64,000 nucleotides of DNA, from positions 1 through 64,000 of the forward strand of contig WHTA01000005.1 in the NCBI GenBank assembly GCA_009379825.1. The letters are read 5' to 3'. Within the stretch, counting starts at the first letter, position 1. Every line of letters begins with the position of its first letter. The translations under genes and the position numbers were made by a program. The notes below the pieces were generated by a model. That model was given only the letters and a program-made list of their open reading frames with translations. It did no database searches and had not been told where the DNA came from. This DNA comes from Streptosporangiales bacterium. Its GTDB lineage: Bacteria; Actinomycetota; Actinomycetes; Streptosporangiales; WHST01. This document shows positions 53,334 to 61,583 of the stretch, one piece after another.

Positions 53334-53564
53334 TCAGCCACCTTCCTCTTGCAGCCGTTGGCGGAGCATCTCCTTGCCCTGGGCGCCAGCCTTCCTGTTG
53401 TTGTGCTGGATCTTCCGGAACCACTCGGCGAGCTCGGCGTCGTTCTGTTGCTCCGCGTCGGCGATGTACGTCTCCATCCGCCACACGTTGTGCAGGGAAT
53501 CCTGGACAGCGGAGAACAGGTTGTAGTTCTTGTCCTTCACCGGGCTGCTCGGCTTGTCCGCCAT
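53334..53564 (-). CDS. Small helical protein of the stress island
   Basis: 76 residues from ATG 53564 (MADKPSSPVKDKNYNLF). Mostly helical: LFSAVQDSLHNVWRMETYIADAEQ, then NDAELAEWFRKIQHNNRKAG. This pattern matches a conserved ~75-residue actinobacterial family without known function, often near general-stress genes. GGAGGAGG precedes the start. A GGGTAG (-10 like) lies upstream on its strand at 53617-53612 but the matching -35 is weak. Divergent from the membrane-protein operon. Confidence 0.75.
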   Translation of the reverse strand: MADKPSSPVKDKNYNLFSAVQDSLHNVWRMETYIADAEQQNDAELAEWFRKIQHNNRKAGAQGKEMLRQRLQEEGG

Positions 53565-53629
53565 CGGTCGCCTCCTCCGATACGTAGTGGTGTCTGCCTT
53601 GCACACGTCCTGCTACCCGCGCCGAGGTC

Positions 53630-53655
53630 GTTTACCCATCACCCGGGCTGGGTAG
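53630..53655 (+). promoter_or_regulatory. SigB/SigF-type promoter of the membrane protein-hydrolase operon
   Basis: GTTTAC (53630-53635), 14-base spacer, GGGTAG (53650-53655), against the SigB-family consensus GTTTAA-N12-14-GGGTAT (5 of 6 in each box). The first gene starts at 53687, 32 bases downstream, after AAAGGAGG. Confidence 0.65.
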
Positions 53656-53686
53656 CCGTGCCCCACCGAGCAAAGGAGGTCACGTC

Positions 53687-54127
53687 GTGGAACCGGCCGC
53701 ATTGATCTTCCTCGCGACCGGCATCGTCGTGGTGGCCGTGGTCGGCTGGCTGATGATGTTGACCGGCCGCAGGTACGTCGGCGGCGCAGGGGGTGCGGGT
53801 AGCAACGTCGGTTCGGTCGCCGGGCTGTTGGCGGTGGTGTTCTTGTTGGTGACGCTCGGCATCACCGCGCTGATCACCGTGCTGCCTGTCGGCGACGGCG
53901 TGTCGGGATACCTGGTACGGCTCGGCATCCTGCTGGTCGTTCTCGGGTTGGTCTACGGCGTCTTCGTCGGTGCGCTCGCCCGGCGTCGCGAGGTCGCCAT
54001 CACCGAGGCCGCGCTGGCGGAGGCACAGGAGCAGGAGAAGCCACACGAGCCGCCCTCCAACCCCAGCGTGCCGACGCACTCACCGAGCTACCTCCCACCG
54101 AGCGGGCTGCCCGGCGACGGCACGTGA
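53687..54127 (+). CDS. Membrane protein, three-helix
   Basis: 146 residues from GTG 53687 with AAAGGAGG ahead. Membrane helices at about 5-24, 42-65 and 77-97, then a charged tail (LARRREVAITEAALAEAQEQ) and a Pro/Ser-rich end. A Gly-rich YVGGAGGAGSNVGS loop lies between helices 1 and 2. Family not recognised. First gene of a three-gene operon under a SigB-type promoter, so expected to be induced with the sigma factor encoded at 60486. Its stop overlaps the next start by 4 bases. Confidence 0.75.
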   Translation: MEPAALIFLATGIVVVAVVGWLMMLTGRRYVGGAGGAGSNVGSVAGLLAVVFLLVTLGITALITVLPVGDGVSGYLVRLGILLVVLGLVYGVFVGALARRREVAITEAALAEAQEQEKPHEPPSNPSVPTHSPSYLPPSGLPGDGT

Positions 54128-54948
54128 CCATGACCGGCACGCAGAGGGAGGCGACCGCCGAGGCAGCCGGTTCCCGCGGCCGGCGCTGGGCGACGGTCGC
54201 CACCCGGCGCTTCGGACGCCGCCTCGCGATCACGGACCTGACCGCCGCGGTCCACGCGAGGACCATGGGCGACGGCGCGGACGTCGTCATCGTCCCAGGG
54301 CTCGCGGTCTCCGCCTACCTGTACGAGACCCAGGAACGGCTGGCGGCCCTGGGCCGGGTGCACCTGTTGGAGCTACCGGGTGTCGCCGGCGGGCGCGACG
54401 TGCCCGGTACACCGACGCTGCGGGACGACGCGGCGGCCGTCACGGAGTGGTTGCGGACAAGACTTCGGCGGCCCGCCATCGTGGTCGGTCACTCGTACGG
54501 GACGCAAGTCGCCGTACGAACGGCGGCCGCCGACGACACGTTCGTCGCAGGTCTTGTCCTCGCCAGCCCCACCGTCGACCCGCGCTACCGGTCGCTGCGG
54601 CGGCTGTTGTGGGCCTGGCGTGCGGACGCCAGGACGCACCCCGAGGGGCTCGTCGAGGTCAACCGCCCCCAACAGCGACGGGCCGGTCTCGGCCGCGTCT
54701 GCGCGATGGGGGTATCGATGCTCGCCGACGCACCGGAGCGGTGGCTGGCGCAGGTCGCGGTGCCGCTGACGGTCATGGTGGGCAGCCGCGACGCGCTCGG
54801 CACCGAGGCCTGGGGACGGCGACTGACGGACCGACCGAACGGCAGGTACGTGCGCGTCGAAGGTGGTACGCACACGTTCCCGTTCGAGTGTCCCGAGGCG
54901 TTGGTGCGTACGGTTCGAGTCGACATGGGAAAGGACACAGAGCAATGA
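54124..54948 (+). CDS. Alpha/beta-fold hydrolase
   Basis: 274 residues. The nucleophile elbow GHSYGTQ (Ser ~126), the preceding DVVIVPGLAVSAYLYE oxyanion strand and the C-terminal GGTHTFPFE His complete the hydrolase triad; the acid is probably Asp in MVGSRDALG. ATG 54124 overlaps the membrane-protein stop. Serine hydrolase, cytosolic; substrate unknown. Co-transcribed with the unrecognised protein that follows (4-base overlap), which may modify the same compound. Confidence 0.87.
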   Translation: MTMTGTQREATAEAAGSRGRRWATVATRRFGRRLAITDLTAAVHARTMGDGADVVIVPGLAVSAYLYETQERLAALGRVHLLELPGVAGGRDVPGTPTLRDDAAAVTEWLRTRLRRPAIVVGHSYGTQVAVRTAAADDTFVAGLVLASPTVDPRYRSLRRLLWAWRADARTHPEGLVEVNRPQQRRAGLGRVCAMGVSMLADAPERWLAQVAVPLTVMVGSRDALGTEAWGRRLTDRPNGRYVRVEGGTHTFPFECPEALVRTVRVDMGKDTEQ

Positions 54949-56363
54949 GCACCCTGGCACCAGAACGCGCGGTGGCGAGTTTCGACTCGGCAAGCGCGTT
55001 CCTCCGAGTTACGGCGCACGCCCTGCGCGGCGAGAGCTTCCCCCACCTCGGGCGGGGCCGGCTGCGCGCGTTGCCGACGCGCTACTCCACGCTGCTTCCA
55101 CGTACCGTGCGCCGCACTGCGTACGGCGTGTTCGGCGGCGTGGACGGGATCCCCGCGCGCCGCCTCGGCGACGTCGACATGGAGACCGTTGCGCAGTGGG
55201 TGGTCGAGCACTACGGCGAGGACAGCTACCCCGGCGTGGTCATCGGCTCCCCGAACGGCGCTGCTGCGCATCTCTGCGCCGAGACCGGGATGCCGTTCCT
55301 CCCGCAGACGCTGCTGATCCCGGTGCGTTGGGAGGGCAACGACCCCGACCACGGGATCGAGGCGATGGAGCGCGGCAGGAGGATCGCCGGTCCGCTGCTC
55401 GAGAACAACCCGGGGATCGTGCTGCACCACATGCACGACGGCAACCAGGACCGGCTGATGATCCAGCACATGACGTACTTCCGGCTGAAGTGGCGCCAAC
55501 TGCCTGCGGCCTACGAGCGCTTCCTCGCGGAGCGCCTCGCACCTGAGGCGCCGATCATCTTCCTCGCCGACGACTCCACCTGGCCGACGACCAGGATCGA
55601 CGATCGCCACTTCTTCCAGGCAGGCGCGCGCGGCGGACTCAACGCCAGCGAGTACACCGAAGGCTCCCCGCGGGTCGCGAGCTACTTGCAGGAGCACGGT
55701 TCTGCGCACACCCAGTTCCAGTCACCGAAGCCGGATGGCGTGAGCGCGGAGGCCGAATGGGGGTTCGACGCCAGGATCGCGGACGACATCAGCTCACGGG
55801 CCAGCGAGCTGTCGCATCCGGTGGTCACCATGCACGTACCGGAACCGCAGGCACTGTCGGGACCCACCGCACGCCTGCTGCGGCAACGGTTCAGGGACGC
55901 AGGCGCCGACGGCGACCGGCTCGTCGTCGAGTCGTTCCTCATGGTCGACCCGGTAGAGGTACGCAGGAGCGGTTCTGTGCCGTTCTGGAGCTACTTCCCC
56001 GTCGAGGAGTCACTGACCCACTGCGCGGAGCACGTCGAGCGCGCTGCTCGCGCCGGCGACCCGTACCGGGACGTCGACGTCCTGCTGTTCCCCCACGGGG
56101 TCGCGTCGGTCGGCGCGACCAGCCCGAAGGACTGGGCGGAGCGGCTACGCGACCACATCAGCGGCAAGGTGCGGTTCGTCTCCGGCACTCCAGAACGTTG
56201 GCCTGCGCACTTCGACGCGCTGGCGAAGTACGGCACTGCGCTGGGCCAGCTCGCCGACCAACCACAACCCGGCGAGCGGCTGCCGGTGGAACAGATGCTG
56301 GAGCGGGTCGCCGGTGACGCCGTCCGCCTCGACTCCCTGCCGGAGCGCTTCGCGAGGCGGTGA
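54945..56363 (+). CDS. Unrecognised conserved-looking protein of the stress operon
   Basis: 472 residues. I do not recognise it. Visible are a Ser/Ala N-terminal helix, SYPGVVIGSPNGAAAHLCAE (an active-site-like Gly/Ser loop near 103-118), ETGMPFLPQTLLIPVRWEG, HHMHDGNQDRLMIQHMTYFR (His-rich, possible metal site), FLADDSTWPTTRIDDRHFFQ and a C-terminal half with VDVLLFPHGVASVGATSP. No signal peptide or membrane helix. Intact and codon-typical. Its start overlaps the hydrolase stop (ATGA) and it converges with the baeRF2 gene 9 bases away. The His and Asp clusters suggest an enzyme, but nothing more can be said. Confidence 0.75.
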   Translation: MSTLAPERAVASFDSASAFLRVTAHALRGESFPHLGRGRLRALPTRYSTLLPRTVRRTAYGVFGGVDGIPARRLGDVDMETVAQWVVEHYGEDSYPGVVIGSPNGAAAHLCAETGMPFLPQTLLIPVRWEGNDPDHGIEAMERGRRIAGPLLENNPGIVLHHMHDGNQDRLMIQHMTYFRLKWRQLPAAYERFLAERLAPEAPIIFLADDSTWPTTRIDDRHFFQAGARGGLNASEYTEGSPRVASYLQEHGSAHTQFQSPKPDGVSAEAEWGFDARIADDISSRASELSHPVVTMHVPEPQALSGPTARLLRQRFRDAGADGDRLVVESFLMVDPVEVRRSGSVPFWSYFPVEESLTHCAEHVERAARAGDPYRDVDVLLFPHGVASVGATSPKDWAERLRDHISGKVRFVSGTPERWPAHFDALAKYGTALGQLADQPQPGERLPVEQMLERVAGDAVRLDSLPERFARR

Positions 56364-56372
56364 CCCGCCCGG

Positions 56373-57500
56373 TTACCCGTGCGCCTGTGCCGGGTCGTGC
56401 GAGTAACGCAGCAGGGCCGCCACACCGTCGCGATGGCCGATGCTTCCCGGTTCCACGAACGCCAGGTCGGCATCGGTCGTCGCCGCGGCACCGACGAGCG
56501 CGGCGGTAGCCGGCACCTCGACCTGGTCGGTCGCTCCCATCTCGGCGAGCGCGGCGGCGTCGCGGGCGAGCAGGTGGATATCGTCGCCCATCCACAGTGC
56601 CGGCAACCGCTCGACGGCGCCGTCGTCCTCCAGGAGCACCGTGTCGACCTGGGCCTTGCGCAGACAGCCGACCGTCGCGTCCAGGCCGGCGGCGGCGCGT
56701 TCGCCCTGTCCGAGCTGTTCGCGGAACGCCTCGAGCCGACCGGCATCGTCGGCGGCCGCCCGTGCGGCGAGCACCTCGTCCACCTCCTCGTCGACGGGGC
56801 GTGCGCCGCGGTGCCGGCTGCCGACGTCGAGCTCGACGAGCAGCTCCTGCACGCCGGGCGGTGCCACGGCATGGAAGTTCGCCTTCGCCTGCGGGTCGCC
56901 GGCGAGCACGACCACCTCGGCGGCGACGGTCTTGACCAGCTCGGCGACGCGGTCGACGACGACCTTCGCGTTGTGCTGTGTCACGTTCTCGACCCGCTGG
57001 TGGATCCTGCGGTGTGACCAGCCGCCGCCCCGCACCTTGTGCAGCGGATGCGTGTCTCCTTCGACCGCGGTGTCCACCACGTCCGACCGGCCGCGGATCT
57101 GGATGTCGGCGCCCGCCGCATCGACGTTGACGACGAGACACGGCAGCTGCGTTCGCATGGAACGCAGGAGCGGCAACACCTCCGGCAGCTTGCCCCAGGT
57201 CGCCGTACTGGTACCGGGATGCGCGTGGAAGTACTCGTCGAGCAGCAGCTCGCCACCGGCTGCGACGGCGACCTGGCCTTGCGCACCCCCCTCCGCCGGC
57301 GGGGTCGCCACGGCGCAGTCCAGTGCGCGCAGCGTGTCCTCGTCCGCGCCCGCGGCACGCAGCTCCGACCGGACGCCCCGCCAGCGCAGGCGCACCGCAT
57401 GCTCAGCGTCGCCGGCCTCGCGGCCCGCTTCCAGCGTGACGCTGGCGAACGGCCCGCGAACCGAGTACAGCGGCTTGAGGAAGTCGAGATCCAACGTCAC
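56373..57500 (-). CDS. baeRF2-domain protein (Rv2629-like, eRF1-related)
   Basis: 375 residues from GTG 57500 (MTLDLDFLKPLYSVRGPFAS). The bacterial/archaeal eRF1-related family 2 is recognised by FASVTLEAGREAGDAEHAVRLRWR, LPCLVVNVDAAGADI, KVRGGGWSHRRIHQRVENVTQHNA and VVVLAGDPQAKANF, then LRKAQVDTVLLEDD. Mycobacterial Rv2629 is a dormancy-regulon member; ribosome rescue or peptide release is proposed for the family but not proven. Last gene of the minus-strand stress operon, overlapping the small gene before it by 4 bases. Confidence 0.88.
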   Translation of the reverse strand: MTLDLDFLKPLYSVRGPFASVTLEAGREAGDAEHAVRLRWRGVRSELRAAGADEDTLRALDCAVATPPAEGGAQGQVAVAAGGELLLDEYFHAHPGTSTATWGKLPEVLPLLRSMRTQLPCLVVNVDAAGADIQIRGRSDVVDTAVEGDTHPLHKVRGGGWSHRRIHQRVENVTQHNAKVVVDRVAELVKTVAAEVVVLAGDPQAKANFHAVAPPGVQELLVELDVGSRHRGARPVDEEVDEVLAARAAADDAGRLEAFREQLGQGERAAAGLDATVGCLRKAQVDTVLLEDDGAVERLPALWMGDDIHLLARDAAALAEMGATDQVEVPATAALVGAAATTDADLAFVEPGSIGHRDGVAALLRYSHDPAQAHG

Positions 57501-57751
57501 GGCCGCACCTCCGGTTTCTTGCGGGCCAGCTGGTCGGGTTCGGCCGGATCCTCCCCTGCGATCCGGCCGACGAACGTGCCGCTGCCGCCGGTGCTCGTCG
57601 TGGTGCCGGCGGCACGCGGGCGGTCGCCGGTGACCCGGCTCAGCGCTTGGTGCCGGTCGGCTGCCACGTCGGCCTCGGTGCCGCGCCGTACAACCAGGCG
57701 GTCGCGCAGCGCCGCGAGACGGCGCGCCAACCTCGTCAGGAGTCCACTCAT
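57497..57751 (-). CDS. Small hypothetical protein in the stress operon
   Basis: 84 residues from ATG 57751. Basic N-terminal helix (GLLTRLARRLAALRDRLVVRRG), then a disordered Thr/Gly/Pro segment (AGTTTSTGGSGTFVGRI) and a charged end (LARKKPEVRP). No family recognised. Lies 9 bases after the DUF3140 gene and overlaps the baeRF2 start (GTGA), so it is translated with them. May be a partner peptide of baeRF2. Confidence 0.6.
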   Translation of the reverse strand: MSGLLTRLARRLAALRDRLVVRRGTEADVAADRHQALSRVTGDRPRAAGTTTSTGGSGTFVGRIAGEDPAEPDQLARKKPEVRP

Positions 57752-57760
57752 GCCGCTGCC

Positions 57761-58096
57761 CTACCCCGCCTTGATCGGGTCGTGTCCGACGTTCATCAAG
57801 CGGTACTTGCGGCGCTCGTCGGAGATCAGCTCGCCGATCGACTGGCCCTCGGTCTCGTCCTCGACGATGGCGATGACCCGCCACATGGTGTCGACGTCGT
57901 CAGTGGTGAGATCCATCCGCCGCTTGCGCAGGATCTCGAGCACCGCCTCGCCTAGCGGTGGTGCCTTGCCGGCCGGGTCGGCGACGAGCTCCTTGCGCTC
58001 ACCCAACCAGTCCGTCAGTTCCCGCGAGGTCATGTTGACGACCTCGTGGAAGCGTTCCCATACCTCGTCGACGGGTACTTCCGTGTCGCGCTTCAC
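57761..58096 (-). CDS. DUF3140 family protein
   Basis: 111 residues from GTG 58096 (VKRDTEVPVDEVWERFHEVVNM) with GGAGGG upstream. VNMTSRELTDWLG and the C-terminal SDERRKYRLMNVGHDPIKAG are DUF3140 features; the middle has GEAVLEILRKRRMDLTTDDV. All-helical and probably DNA- or protein-binding; function unknown. Fifteen or fewer bases separate it from its neighbours on both sides. Confidence 0.85.
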   Translation of the reverse strand: MKRDTEVPVDEVWERFHEVVNMTSRELTDWLGERKELVADPAGKAPPLGEAVLEILRKRRMDLTTDDVDTMWRVIAIVEDETEGQSIGELISDERRKYRLMNVGHDPIKAG

Positions 58097-58107
58097 GATC
58101 CCTCCAG

Positions 58108-58515
58108 CTACGGCCGTTGCTCCTGCCCGCCACCGAGCGCCGACCAGACGTCCTGCATCGTCCTGAACACCACGCCGGCCGGCAGCTCGTACAGCTGCGC
58201 GACGATCTCGTCGGGCGCGTTGTTGGCCGTCGCGCTCTGCAGCACGCCGGCCCGGTCCGTCGGGAAGACCGACGGCTCGAGGTGCCTGGCCATCTCCGTG
58301 CGCGGCTCCACCTCGTCCGGGTCGAGGCCCGGCGGTGTGGCACCCCGGTACGTACCGCCGGGAGCGCCGGGCGGTTCCGGCTCGTCGTCGGCGGGAGCTT
58401 CCGGCTGCCGCCACTCCTCGCTGTGCGGCTGCACGCCGGAGCGCTCCAACGGCTCGGTCTCGTGCTTGAGCTCCTCGTCGAGCCGTTGGCCGTGCCTGTC
58501 GCTGCCACGTTGCAC
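58108..58515 (-). CDS. DUF2795-like protein
   Basis: 135 residues from GTG 58515 with GAGGAGG ahead. The N-terminal ~70 residues are charged and disordered (EELKHETEPLERSGVQPH, DEPEPPGAPGG). The C-terminal ~55 residues (ARHLEPSVFPTDRAGVLQSA and APDEIVAQLYELPAGVVFRT) match DUF2795, a small helical domain common in actinobacterial stress loci. Second gene of the operon, 21 bases after the poxB-like gene. Confidence 0.78.
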   Translation of the reverse strand: MQRGSDRHGQRLDEELKHETEPLERSGVQPHSEEWRQPEAPADDEPEPPGAPGGTYRGATPPGLDPDEVEPRTEMARHLEPSVFPTDRAGVLQSATANNAPDEIVAQLYELPAGVVFRTMQDVWSALGGGQEQRP

Positions 58516-58536
58516 GTCGCCACCTCCTCTGGACGG

Positions 58537-60333
58537 CTACGAGCGGGACCTCGGCCCGGCGAGGACCTCTTGCAGCTTTGCCTTCACGCCTTCCTTCAGC
58601 ACGCCCCATCGGTCGCTGTCGCCGCGGACGATGGACTCCAGTGCGTTCTCCATCTGCTCCCAGGTGGCGTGCGGCGGGATCGGCGGCACCGCTGGGTCGG
58701 TCACGAACTCGAGCAGACACGGCCGGTCGGCGGCCAACGCCTGCTCCCAAGCGGTCTGCACACCGCCGGGTTCCTCGACCTTTATGCCGCGCAGGCCGAG
58801 CACCCGGGCGTACTCGGCGTACGGGAAGTCGGGAATCTGTTGCGACGGCAGAAACTGCGGCGCACCGCCCATCGCCCGCAGCTCCCAGGTGACCTGGTTG
58901 AGATCCTGGTTGTTCAGCACGCAGACGACGAGCCTCGGGTCGTCCCATTCGGTCCAGAACTTGCCGACACTGATCAGTTCGCTGATGCCGTTCATCTGCA
59001 TGGCGCCGTCGCCCACCAACGCGACGGCAGGCCGGTCCGGGTGCACGAACTTGGCACCCACGGCGTACGGCAGCCCCGGGCACATGGTGGCGAGGTTGCC
59101 GGACAGCGACCCGCGCATCTGGCCCCCGAACTTCAGGTGACGCGCGTACCAGTTCGCGACCGAACCCGAGTCGGCCGTGACGATCGCGTCGGACGGCAGC
59201 ATCGGGGACAGCTCGTGGAACACGAGCTCGGGGTTGATCGGGTCGGCGGAGACGCCTGCGCGGCGTTCCATCACCTCCCACCAGCGGGCGACGTCCCTCT
59301 CGATCCGTTCCCGCCACGACCTGTCCTGCTTCTTCTCGAGCAGCGGCAGCAGGCCGGCGAGCGTCGAACGCGCGTCGCCGACGAGGTTCACCTCGTACGG
59401 GTACCGCATGCCGACGAGCGTGGGATCGCGCTCGATCTGCACGCCGCGCGCTCCGTCGAGATCCGGCAGGAACTGGGTGTAGGGGAAACTCGAGCCGACG
59501 GTCAGCAAGGTGTCGCAGTCGCGCATCATCTCGTAGCTCGGCCGGGTGCCGAGCAGGCCGATGGCACCCGTGACGTACGGCAGGTCGTCGGACAGCACGT
59601 CCTTGCCGAGTAGTGCCTTGGCGACCCCGGCGCCGAGCACGTCGGCCACCCGTTCGACCTCACGCGCGGCGTCCGCGGCGCCCTGCCCGATGAGCATTGC
59701 GACCCGCTCGCCGGCGTTGAGGATGTCCGCAGCTCGCTGCAGGTCGTCGTCCGCCGGCCTGGCGGCCGGCTGCGACATGCCAAGGCTCGACGGCACCATC
59801 ATGAACTCGTGCGTCGGCGGCGAGTAGTCGAGTTCCTGCACGTCTTCAGGAATGATGACGGCCGTCACCGTCTGCCGGGCGAGCGACGTCCGGATCGCGC
59901 GATCCACGACGTTGGGCAGCTGTTCCGGCACGGTGACCATCTGCACGTAGTCGCTGGCGACGTCCTTGTACAACGACAGCAGGTCGACCTCCTGCTGATA
60001 GCTGCCGCCGATCGCGCTGCGGTGGGTCTGGCCGACGATCGCCAGCACGGGAGTGTGGTCCAGCTTCGCGTCGTAGAGGCCGTTGAGCAGATGGATCGCG
60101 CCGGGACCGGACGTCGCGGCGCACACCCCGAGACGCCGGGAGAACTTCGCGTAACCCGTTGCCTCGAAGGCCGACAGCTCTTCGTGCCTGGACTGCACGA
60201 AGCGTGGCGAGTCACCCGCGCGTCCCCAGGCGGCGAGCAACGCGTTGATCCCGTCACCCGGGTACCCGAAGACGTGTTCGACTCCCCACTCCCGGAGTCG
60301 TTCGAGCAGGTAGTCGGCGACGGTATGCGGCAT
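58537..60333 (-). CDS. Thiamine-pyrophosphate enzyme, PoxB-like pyruvate oxidase/dehydrogenase
   Basis: 598 residues from ATG 60333 (MPHTVADYLLERLREWGVEH). TPP N-terminal domain with the catalytic Glu in SRHEELSAFEATGYA, the FAD-type middle domain (LIGQGAADAAREVERVAD), and the TPP C-domain with VGDGAMQMNGISEL and NNQDLN (the GDG-N25-30-NN Mg/TPP motif). PoxB proteins decarboxylate pyruvate to acetate and CO2 at the membrane in stationary or stressed cells. First gene of a five-gene operon under a SigB-type promoter (60377-60401) divergent from the sigma gene. Confidence 0.9.
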   Translation of the reverse strand: MPHTVADYLLERLREWGVEHVFGYPGDGINALLAAWGRAGDSPRFVQSRHEELSAFEATGYAKFSRRLGVCAATSGPGAIHLLNGLYDAKLDHTPVLAIVGQTHRSAIGGSYQQEVDLLSLYKDVASDYVQMVTVPEQLPNVVDRAIRTSLARQTVTAVIIPEDVQELDYSPPTHEFMMVPSSLGMSQPAARPADDDLQRAADILNAGERVAMLIGQGAADAAREVERVADVLGAGVAKALLGKDVLSDDLPYVTGAIGLLGTRPSYEMMRDCDTLLTVGSSFPYTQFLPDLDGARGVQIERDPTLVGMRYPYEVNLVGDARSTLAGLLPLLEKKQDRSWRERIERDVARWWEVMERRAGVSADPINPELVFHELSPMLPSDAIVTADSGSVANWYARHLKFGGQMRGSLSGNLATMCPGLPYAVGAKFVHPDRPAVALVGDGAMQMNGISELISVGKFWTEWDDPRLVVCVLNNQDLNQVTWELRAMGGAPQFLPSQQIPDFPYAEYARVLGLRGIKVEEPGGVQTAWEQALAADRPCLLEFVTDPAVPPIPPHATWEQMENALESIVRGDSDRWGVLKEGVKAKLQEVLAGPRSRS

Positions 60334-60376
60334 CTTCGCTCCCGCGATACGTATGGCGGCAGGGTCGCTAGCTGAG

Positions 60377-60401
60377 CTACCCACGCGATCCGGGACGAAA
60401 C
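60377..60401 (-). promoter_or_regulatory. SigB/SigF-type promoter of the poxB-like operon
   Basis: On the minus strand GTTTCG (60401-60396), 13-base spacer, GGGTAG (60382-60377), a good match to GTTTAA-N12-14-GGGTAT. The poxB-like start is 43 bases further along. Confidence 0.65.
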
Positions 60402-60417
60402 GGGGTCTCCAGTTCCG

Positions 60418-60441
60418 GTTGAACGATGTACGGTGGGGAAT
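60418..60441 (+). promoter_or_regulatory. SigB/SigF-type promoter of the sigma gene itself
   Basis: GTTGAA (60418-60423), 12-base spacer, GGGAAT (60436-60441): five of six in each box of the SigB consensus. It lies 44 bases before ATG 60486 and suggests positive autoregulation. Confidence 0.6.
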
Positions 60442-60485: not shown

Positions 60486-61247
60486 ATGACGACGTCAACC
60501 GACATGCAATGCACTGATGCGGAGCTCTTCGGACAGCTGGCTTCCGCCGCCGACGAAGGAGCCAAGGAACGCGCTCGCGAAGTAATGGTGGAGCGGTACA
60601 GCTGGCTGGTGCGCTGGGCGGTGAACAGATACACCGGCCGCGGCGAGCAGACCGAGGAGCTCGACCAGGTCGGCTATCTGGGCCTGATGGAAGCCATCCA
60701 AAGGTTCGACGCCGGACGCGGGGTCGACTTCGTCACCTTCGCCCGGCCGACCGTGCTCGGCGAGATCCGCCGCCACTTCAGGGACAGCCGCCGCTGGGTA
60801 CGGTTGCCGCGCCGGATCCAAGAGCTGAAGATGCAGATCAAGGAAGCCTCGGAGCAGCTCTGCCAGGAGAGGGGGCACCAGCCCTCCGCGGCGGAACTGG
60901 CCGCGCACCTGGAGACGAGCGAGCGGGCGGTCGAGGAGGCGCTGGCGACCGACGACACGTTCTCGCCGCTCTCCCTCGACGCGCCCGTCAGCGACGAGGA
61001 GGAGGCCGCGACCTATCTGGACACGCTCAGCGACGACGACCAGGACCTGGAGAGCGTCGTGGACACCGAGTCACTGTGGCCACTTGTCGAGCGGCTGCCG
61101 GAGCGCGAGCAGGAGATGGTGCTGCTGCGCTTCTACGGGAACAAGACCCAAAGCGACATCGCCGATCAGCTCGGCATCTCACAGATGCACGTGTCGCGCC
61201 TGCTCAACCAGACGCTCAGGTCGCTGCGCGAGGAGCTGGTCGCGTGA
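60486..61247 (+). CDS. SigB/SigF/SigG-family RNA polymerase sigma factor
   Basis: 253 residues with regions 2, 3 and 4. Region 2: LVRWAVNRYTGRGEQTEELDQVGYLG and FDAGRGVDFVTFARPTVLGEIRRHFR (2.3-2.4); region 3: ELKMQIKEASEQLCQERGHQPSAAEL; region 4.2: NKTQSDIADQLGISQMHVSRLL. Length and QVGYLGLMEAI place it with SigF-like stress factors. No anti-sigma or anti-anti-sigma gene is adjacent, unlike typical rsbW/rsbV-sigB loci, so its control must be encoded elsewhere. Likely drives the two flanking operons whose promoters match its expected consensus. Confidence 0.92.
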   Translation: MTTSTDMQCTDAELFGQLASAADEGAKERAREVMVERYSWLVRWAVNRYTGRGEQTEELDQVGYLGLMEAIQRFDAGRGVDFVTFARPTVLGEIRRHFRDSRRWVRLPRRIQELKMQIKEASEQLCQERGHQPSAAELAAHLETSERAVEEALATDDTFSPLSLDAPVSDEEEAATYLDTLSDDDQDLESVVDTESLWPLVERLPEREQEMVLLRFYGNKTQSDIADQLGISQMHVSRLLNQTLRSLREELVA

Positions 61248-61266: not shown

Positions 61267-61491
61267 TCAACAGCGTTTGAGCTCGGAGTTCTCGACCACG
61301 GCGGCCGCGGCGCTGATCAGGGCGCGCTGATCGTACCAATCCGTGTGATCGCTCTGCTCGATGGCGACCGACACCTCGTCACCATTCTTGATCTTCAGCA
61401 GGACAACGGCATCCGCTACCCGGTCATCGGCACCAAGGTCGGCGGAGACTCCCAGACTGTCGAGGATCTCGCCCAACGGCATGCGAGCCAT
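61267..61491 (-). CDS. Small hypothetical protein
   Basis: 74 residues from ATG 61491 (MARMPLGEILDSLGVSADLG) with GGAGGG ahead; ATG 61482 is possible. The middle (AVVLLKIKNGDEVSVAIEQSDHTDWYDQRALIS) is beta-rich and the protein ends SELKRC with a single C-terminal Cys. A family of similar small proteins occurs near actinobacterial sigma factors, but I do not assign a function. Convergent with the sigma gene, 19 bases apart, so antisense interference is possible. Confidence 0.65.
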   Translation of the reverse strand: MARMPLGEILDSLGVSADLGADDRVADAVVLLKIKNGDEVSVAIEQSDHTDWYDQRALISAAAAVVENSELKRC

Positions 61492-61583
61492 GACGGGCAC
61501 CCTCCTTTCGGTCCGCACGAGTGTCCCCTACCCTGCCAGGCCCACTCGATGCAGTCGCGACCCTTCCCACAGAGGAGGACGCC

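Follow-up and report, generated by a model that had tools for sequence, protein, structure and literature searches.

The genes and predicted promoters of the locus

The window (the whole stretch of 64,000 nucleotides that was analysed, on contig C5) contains the eight genes and sigma factor gene which had been described from the sequence alone, with mem146, abh and u472 on the + strand and the poxB-like, DUF2795, DUF3140, u84 and baeRF2 genes on the - strand. The three promoter-like sites that had been reported with them were found at exactly the sequences and coordinates claimed. The features, in order along the window, are:

53630-53655, + strand: predicted promoter 1 (SigB-type), GTTTAC-N14-GGGTAG, 31 nt 5' of the mem146 GTG (53687), heading mem146-abh-u472
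53687-54127, + strand: mem146, small hydrophobic (membrane) protein with a 67% identical orthologue in locus L176
54124-54948, + strand: abh, alpha/beta hydrolase (Abhydrolase_6, Pfam E 7.9e-17)
54945-56363, + strand: u472, uncharacterised 472-aa family
56373-57503, - strand: baeRF2, release-factor-like protein of the Rv2629/Balon kind (PF18844, E 9.5e-38)
57497-57751, - strand: u84, short protein without a known family, which precedes baeRF2 in genomes G001 and G002 too
57761-58096, - strand: DUF3140 protein (Pfam E 5.5e-17)
58108-58515, - strand: DUF2795 protein (Pfam E 1.9e-10), found immediately before baeRF2 in four order-mates
58537-60333, - strand: poxB-like thiamine-pyrophosphate enzyme (PRK08273; NF006129, 991 bits, cut-off 724)
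60377-60401, - strand: predicted promoter 2 (SigB-type), GTTTCG-N13-GGGTAG, 43 nt 5' of the poxB-like ATG (60333), heading poxB-DUF2795-DUF3140-u84-baeRF2
60418-60441, + strand: candidate promoter 3 (SigB-type), GTTGAA-N12-GGGAAT, 44 nt 5' of the sigma factor ATG (60486)
60486-61247, + strand: sigma factor of the SigB/SigF/SigG family (TIGR02980, 256.9 bits, cut-off 234.35)
61267-61518, - strand: u83, short protein without a known family, convergent with the sigma factor gene

The + strand genes mem146, abh and u472 overlap end to end, and on the - strand the gaps from poxB to u84 are approximately 21, 11 and 9 nt, with u84 and baeRF2 overlapping. Pfam and NCBIfam searches gave no match for mem146, while Sigma70_r2, r3 and r4 were all above cut-off in the sigma factor. 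The nearest solved structure to the poxB-like enzyme is the E. coli pyruvate dehydrogenase [cytochrome] (3ey9, E 4.3e-89); it fell below the pyruvate oxidase/dehydrogenase equivalog cut-offs of PRK08611, PRK09124 and PRK06546 and passed that of PRK08273, ‘thiamine pyrophosphate-requiring protein’, and so a PoxB function is putative here. For baeRF2 the sole PDB match was Rv2629 (8v9k_z, E 1.3e-28, full length, residues 8-367), a protein that binds in the A site of the ribosome, inhibiting translation (PMC10901736), and as it scored 265.6 bits against the Rv2629 family NF052289, under the cut-off of 320, we call it related to Rv2629 and not an equivalog. A literature search on DUF2795 in connection with stress sigma factors gave nothing useful.

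Promoter motifs and chance expectation

All three sites follow the SigB-type pattern (a GTTTNN/GNNT -35, a GGGWAN -10 and a spacer of 12-15 nt), with site 3 deviating at the fourth base of the -35, which reads GTTG and not GNNT; sites 2 and 3 diverge from each other across 16 nt. No sigma-70 consensus promoters were found in the region. Scored with a matrix made from 24 mapped S. coelicolor SigB-family promoters (PMC8346170), and thus from no promoter of the present organism, sites 1, 2 and 3 ranked first (16.7 bits), third (13.5 bits) and fourth (12.2 bits) among the approximately 128,000 positions of the window. Matches of at least 12 bits numbered 4 in the window against 5.6 expected, which is no excess over chance, and GTTT-N16-19-GGGTA matched once against 0.15 expected. 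Because this window count is not above chance the motif alone proves nothing, and the evidence therefore rests on where the sites are placed and on whether they are conserved. The genome search for the motif that had been proposed in the sequence-only reading gave 19 occurrences of GTTT-N15-17-GGGTA against 6 of the reversed pattern, an approximately threefold excess (these are counts from pattern searches, relaxed -35 patterns having been set aside as too degenerate). A weaker SigB-like site, GGTAAA-N12-GGGTAG, lies at 53613-53636 on the - strand, divergent from site 1 and facing a small gene at 53334-53564.

Conservation of sites 1 and 2

Strict counterparts of site 2 were found 56 and 67 nt before the poxB orthologues of G001 and G002, which are both of the other genomes of the genus. 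Across the order, which includes Nocardiopsis and Nonomuraea, the relaxed motif GNNT-N14-17-GGGTA lay no more than 200 nt upstream of 20 of 30 poxB orthologues and never on the opposite strand (shuffle control for the 30: mean 0.45, maximum 2), and was absent within that distance from the remaining 10; kinship inflates these counts, as one genus (g4, Nocardiopsis) contributes many of the sequences. As both the distances to the start codon and the spacer sequences vary, the poxB site appears to have been kept beyond a mere lack of divergence. Site 1 has a counterpart, GTTTGG-N14-GGGTAG, at the corresponding position upstream of the mem146 orthologue in L176, a locus from the metagenome-assembled genome of a near relative. 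These comparisons support sites 1 and 2 as predicted SigB-type promoters that are maintained by selection.

At L176 (2383-3420) a Ku gene, preceded by a SigB-like site, separates mem146 from abh, and in G002 poxB has Ku and LigD primase-polymerase genes on its flanks (L121 4089-7824). DNA end-joining may thus belong to the same regulon.

Promoter motifs at baeRF2 and at the abh-u472 pair

Motifs were also found at baeRF2 itself, often where the gene does not follow poxB: GTTT..GGGTA stands directly before it in six g20 genomes, in four order-mates GTTTGT-N12-GGGTAT precedes the DUF2795-baeRF2 operon, and the operon heads in G001 and G002 carry weaker forms. In all, the motif was directly upstream in 8 of 30 baeRF2 loci against 1 on the other strand, suggesting that a motif of its own is a trait of baeRF2 in some genera and not in all.

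The u472 family is patchy, being present in 16 of the 395 genomes of the class, and abh lies immediately upstream of it in the same direction in 49 of 78 named loci (the contig search used a 5-member alignment, an 11-member version being too diverse). Of these 49 loci, 14 had the motif close to the start of abh, among them all seven Nocardiopsis loci counted, compared to 3 on the other strand. Pfam gave no match for u472 and no solved relative was found. An AlphaFold2 model of the protein was confident (pLDDT 91.7), and a Foldseek search with it returned no match at E ≤1e-3. A second comparison gave C. difficile SlpH/SlpL as the best matches, with Z scores of 8.2-9.2 and an rmsd above 4; such values come close to those reported for unrelated proteins, and no function is named from them.

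Site 3 and the sigma factor gene

The placing of site 3 before the sigma factor gene implied autoregulation, which was not supported and was rejected as a conserved trait: no counterpart of site 3 stands at the sigma gene of G001, of G002 or of a paralogue on contig C9. It seems about evenly balanced whether site 3 is a chance match, with only sites 1 and 2 acting as promoters and the sigma gene driven otherwise, for example from a SigA-type -10, TACGGT, at approximately 60430. The lack of a comparable site at the orthologues, and the equal number of matches of at least 12 bits expected at random, speak for chance, whereas the site ranks fourth in the window, is intergenic and has the correct strand and distance, and its N12 spacing also precedes DUF2795-baeRF2 in relatives.

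Extent of the regulon and the sigma factor that may read it

The claim that the neighbouring sigma factor defines a local regulon of these genes was not borne out, as the sigma gene is on different contigs from poxB in both G001 and G002, a second SigB-family sigma factor exists and sites occur elsewhere. The sole gene that all three members of the genus have next to the sigma gene is u83 (52-67% identity), and in G001 abh is divergent to poxB. That such varied arrangements share the same promoter type is the best evidence that the genes form one regulon. Next to the G001 sigma gene there are, as judged by eye, ergothioneine-biosynthesis-like genes (L055 6179-9132). On contig C16 of the present genome a gas-vesicle cluster (Gas_vesicle, GvpL/F and GvpO; L255 4501-10729) has a strict GTTT-N15-GGGTA approximately 63 nt before its first gene and is followed by a LigD-like gene and a hemerythrin. 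As this cluster carries a strict site, the regulon probably extends well beyond the window.

The second sigma factor, encoded on C9, and that on C5 are the two members in the genome which exceed the TIGR02980 cut-off, and their region 4.2 recognition helices (GISQMHVSRLL) are identical; furthermore, the nine S. coelicolor SigB homologues cross-recognise promoters (PMC8346170). The promoters could thus be of SigB type and yet be read mainly by the C9 paralogue, leaving the neighbouring sigma factor another or a secondary role, but we think this rather unlikely given that the clustering of sigma, poxB, baeRF2 and u472 is seen again in the distant family f39 (G240 and G332). There baeRF2, poxB and u472 follow one another together with a SigB-family sigma gene, within approximately 6-7 kb, and the clusters are headed by GTGACA-N13-GGGTA[AT].

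No anti-sigma gene is nearby, as had been noted from the sequence: HATPase_c_2 has no match anywhere on contig C5. Nine matches above cut-off were found in the whole genome, and the eight inspected (all but that on C50) are proteins of 327-614 aa carrying further domains (kinases, SpoIIE-type, MEDS-type), none of them a stand-alone RsbW. Of the weaker matches one was inspected, a 143-aa HATPase candidate on C11, and it was discarded as it is a two-component histidine kinase. Two of the three STAS genes of the genome were inspected and had no SigB-related neighbourhood. In G028, another member of the order, the start of the sigma gene overlaps with an RsbW-like gene, and by eye the reading frames upstream of the sigma gene in other f3 loci resemble this arrangement; an RsbW could be hidden by the draft state of the present genome. 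The f39 sigma factor (L158 11773-13014; L159 7849-9054) has a C-terminal STAS domain of the anti-anti-sigma type, and this fused STAS-sigma regulator might bear on control without RsbW. A SigB-type sigma factor with no visible RsbW partner would raise the question of how it is kept silent.

A predicted piece of a general stress regulon

Taken together, the arrangement and conservation of the sites make it likely, and we hold this with good confidence, that the island is one piece of a SigB-type general stress regulon, predicted to be transcribed from 53630 rightwards and from 60377 leftwards by a SigB-family holoenzyme. That chance alone produced all three motifs in this GC-rich genome is very improbable, for although the window total equals that expected by chance, sites 1 and 2 and the operon-head sites are conserved across the order. 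Because relatives keep the promoters even when the genes move, the genes of both operons very probably take part in the general stress response.

In the mechanism that we infer, from the transcription starts at the sites and their driver (the C5 sigma factor or its C9 paralogue) to the inducing stress and the roles of the proteins, stress would free or raise the SigB-family sigma factor, and the holoenzyme would read site 1, giving a rightward mem146-abh-u472 transcript, and site 2, giving a leftward poxB-DUF2795-DUF3140-u84-baeRF2 transcript. The baeRF2 product would then act as an Rv2629/Balon-type factor that parks ribosomes under stress, the pyruvate-oxidase-like enzyme may feed electrons to the membrane, and the first operon would supply the hydrolase/u472 pair. 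More tentatively, and with less confidence than doubt, we propose that SigB-type sigma factors of actinobacteria may directly control Balon-type hibernation across the Streptosporangiales and beyond, together with the hydrolase-u472 cassette, and that the sigma factor of this genus may work without RsbW. The reading of the island as part of a stress regulon would itself connect these ribosome-hibernation factors, a class discovered only recently, with one specific regulator that can be tested in a large bacterial order. It also marks the widespread, uncharacterised abh-u472 pair as a probable stress-response module.

Comparison with known systems

Actinobacteria are well known to have SigB/SigF regulons (PMC4694148; PMC8346170) and Balon genes are known from stress operons (PMC10901736); new, as far as the searches reached, are the abh-u472 cassette and the SigB-type promoters that footprinting places upstream of the Rv2629-like and the poxB-like genes of this order. 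With the M. smegmatis SigF regulon (GTTT-N14-19-GGGTA) the locus shares the promoter type and a sigma factor of the SigB/SigF family, the stress genes there including hemerythrin and catalase (PMC4694148). It differs in that sigF of M. smegmatis shares a transcript with the anti-sigma gene rsbW whereas the present sigma gene has no adjacent RsbW, and a poxB-baeRF2 operon is not apparent in the consulted passages of the M. smegmatis regulon table (PMC4694148). The SigB homologues of S. coelicolor (PMC8346170) share the GNNT/GTTT -35, the GGGTAN -10 and spacers of 12-15 nt, but number nine compared to the two above cut-off in the present genome. With the Balon/Rv2629 factors (PMC10901736) baeRF2, which aligns with Rv2629 along its own full length, shares a stress-operon context, although Rv2629 is described as hypoxia-induced while baeRF2 here stands behind a predicted SigB-type promoter. 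The B. subtilis SigB regulon, of a distant phylum and with different accompanying genes, has the same consensus (GTTTAA-N12-14-GGGWAW), and yocB, a Balon homologue of that bacterium (PMC10901736), is listed in a predicted SigB regulon (PMC7824861).
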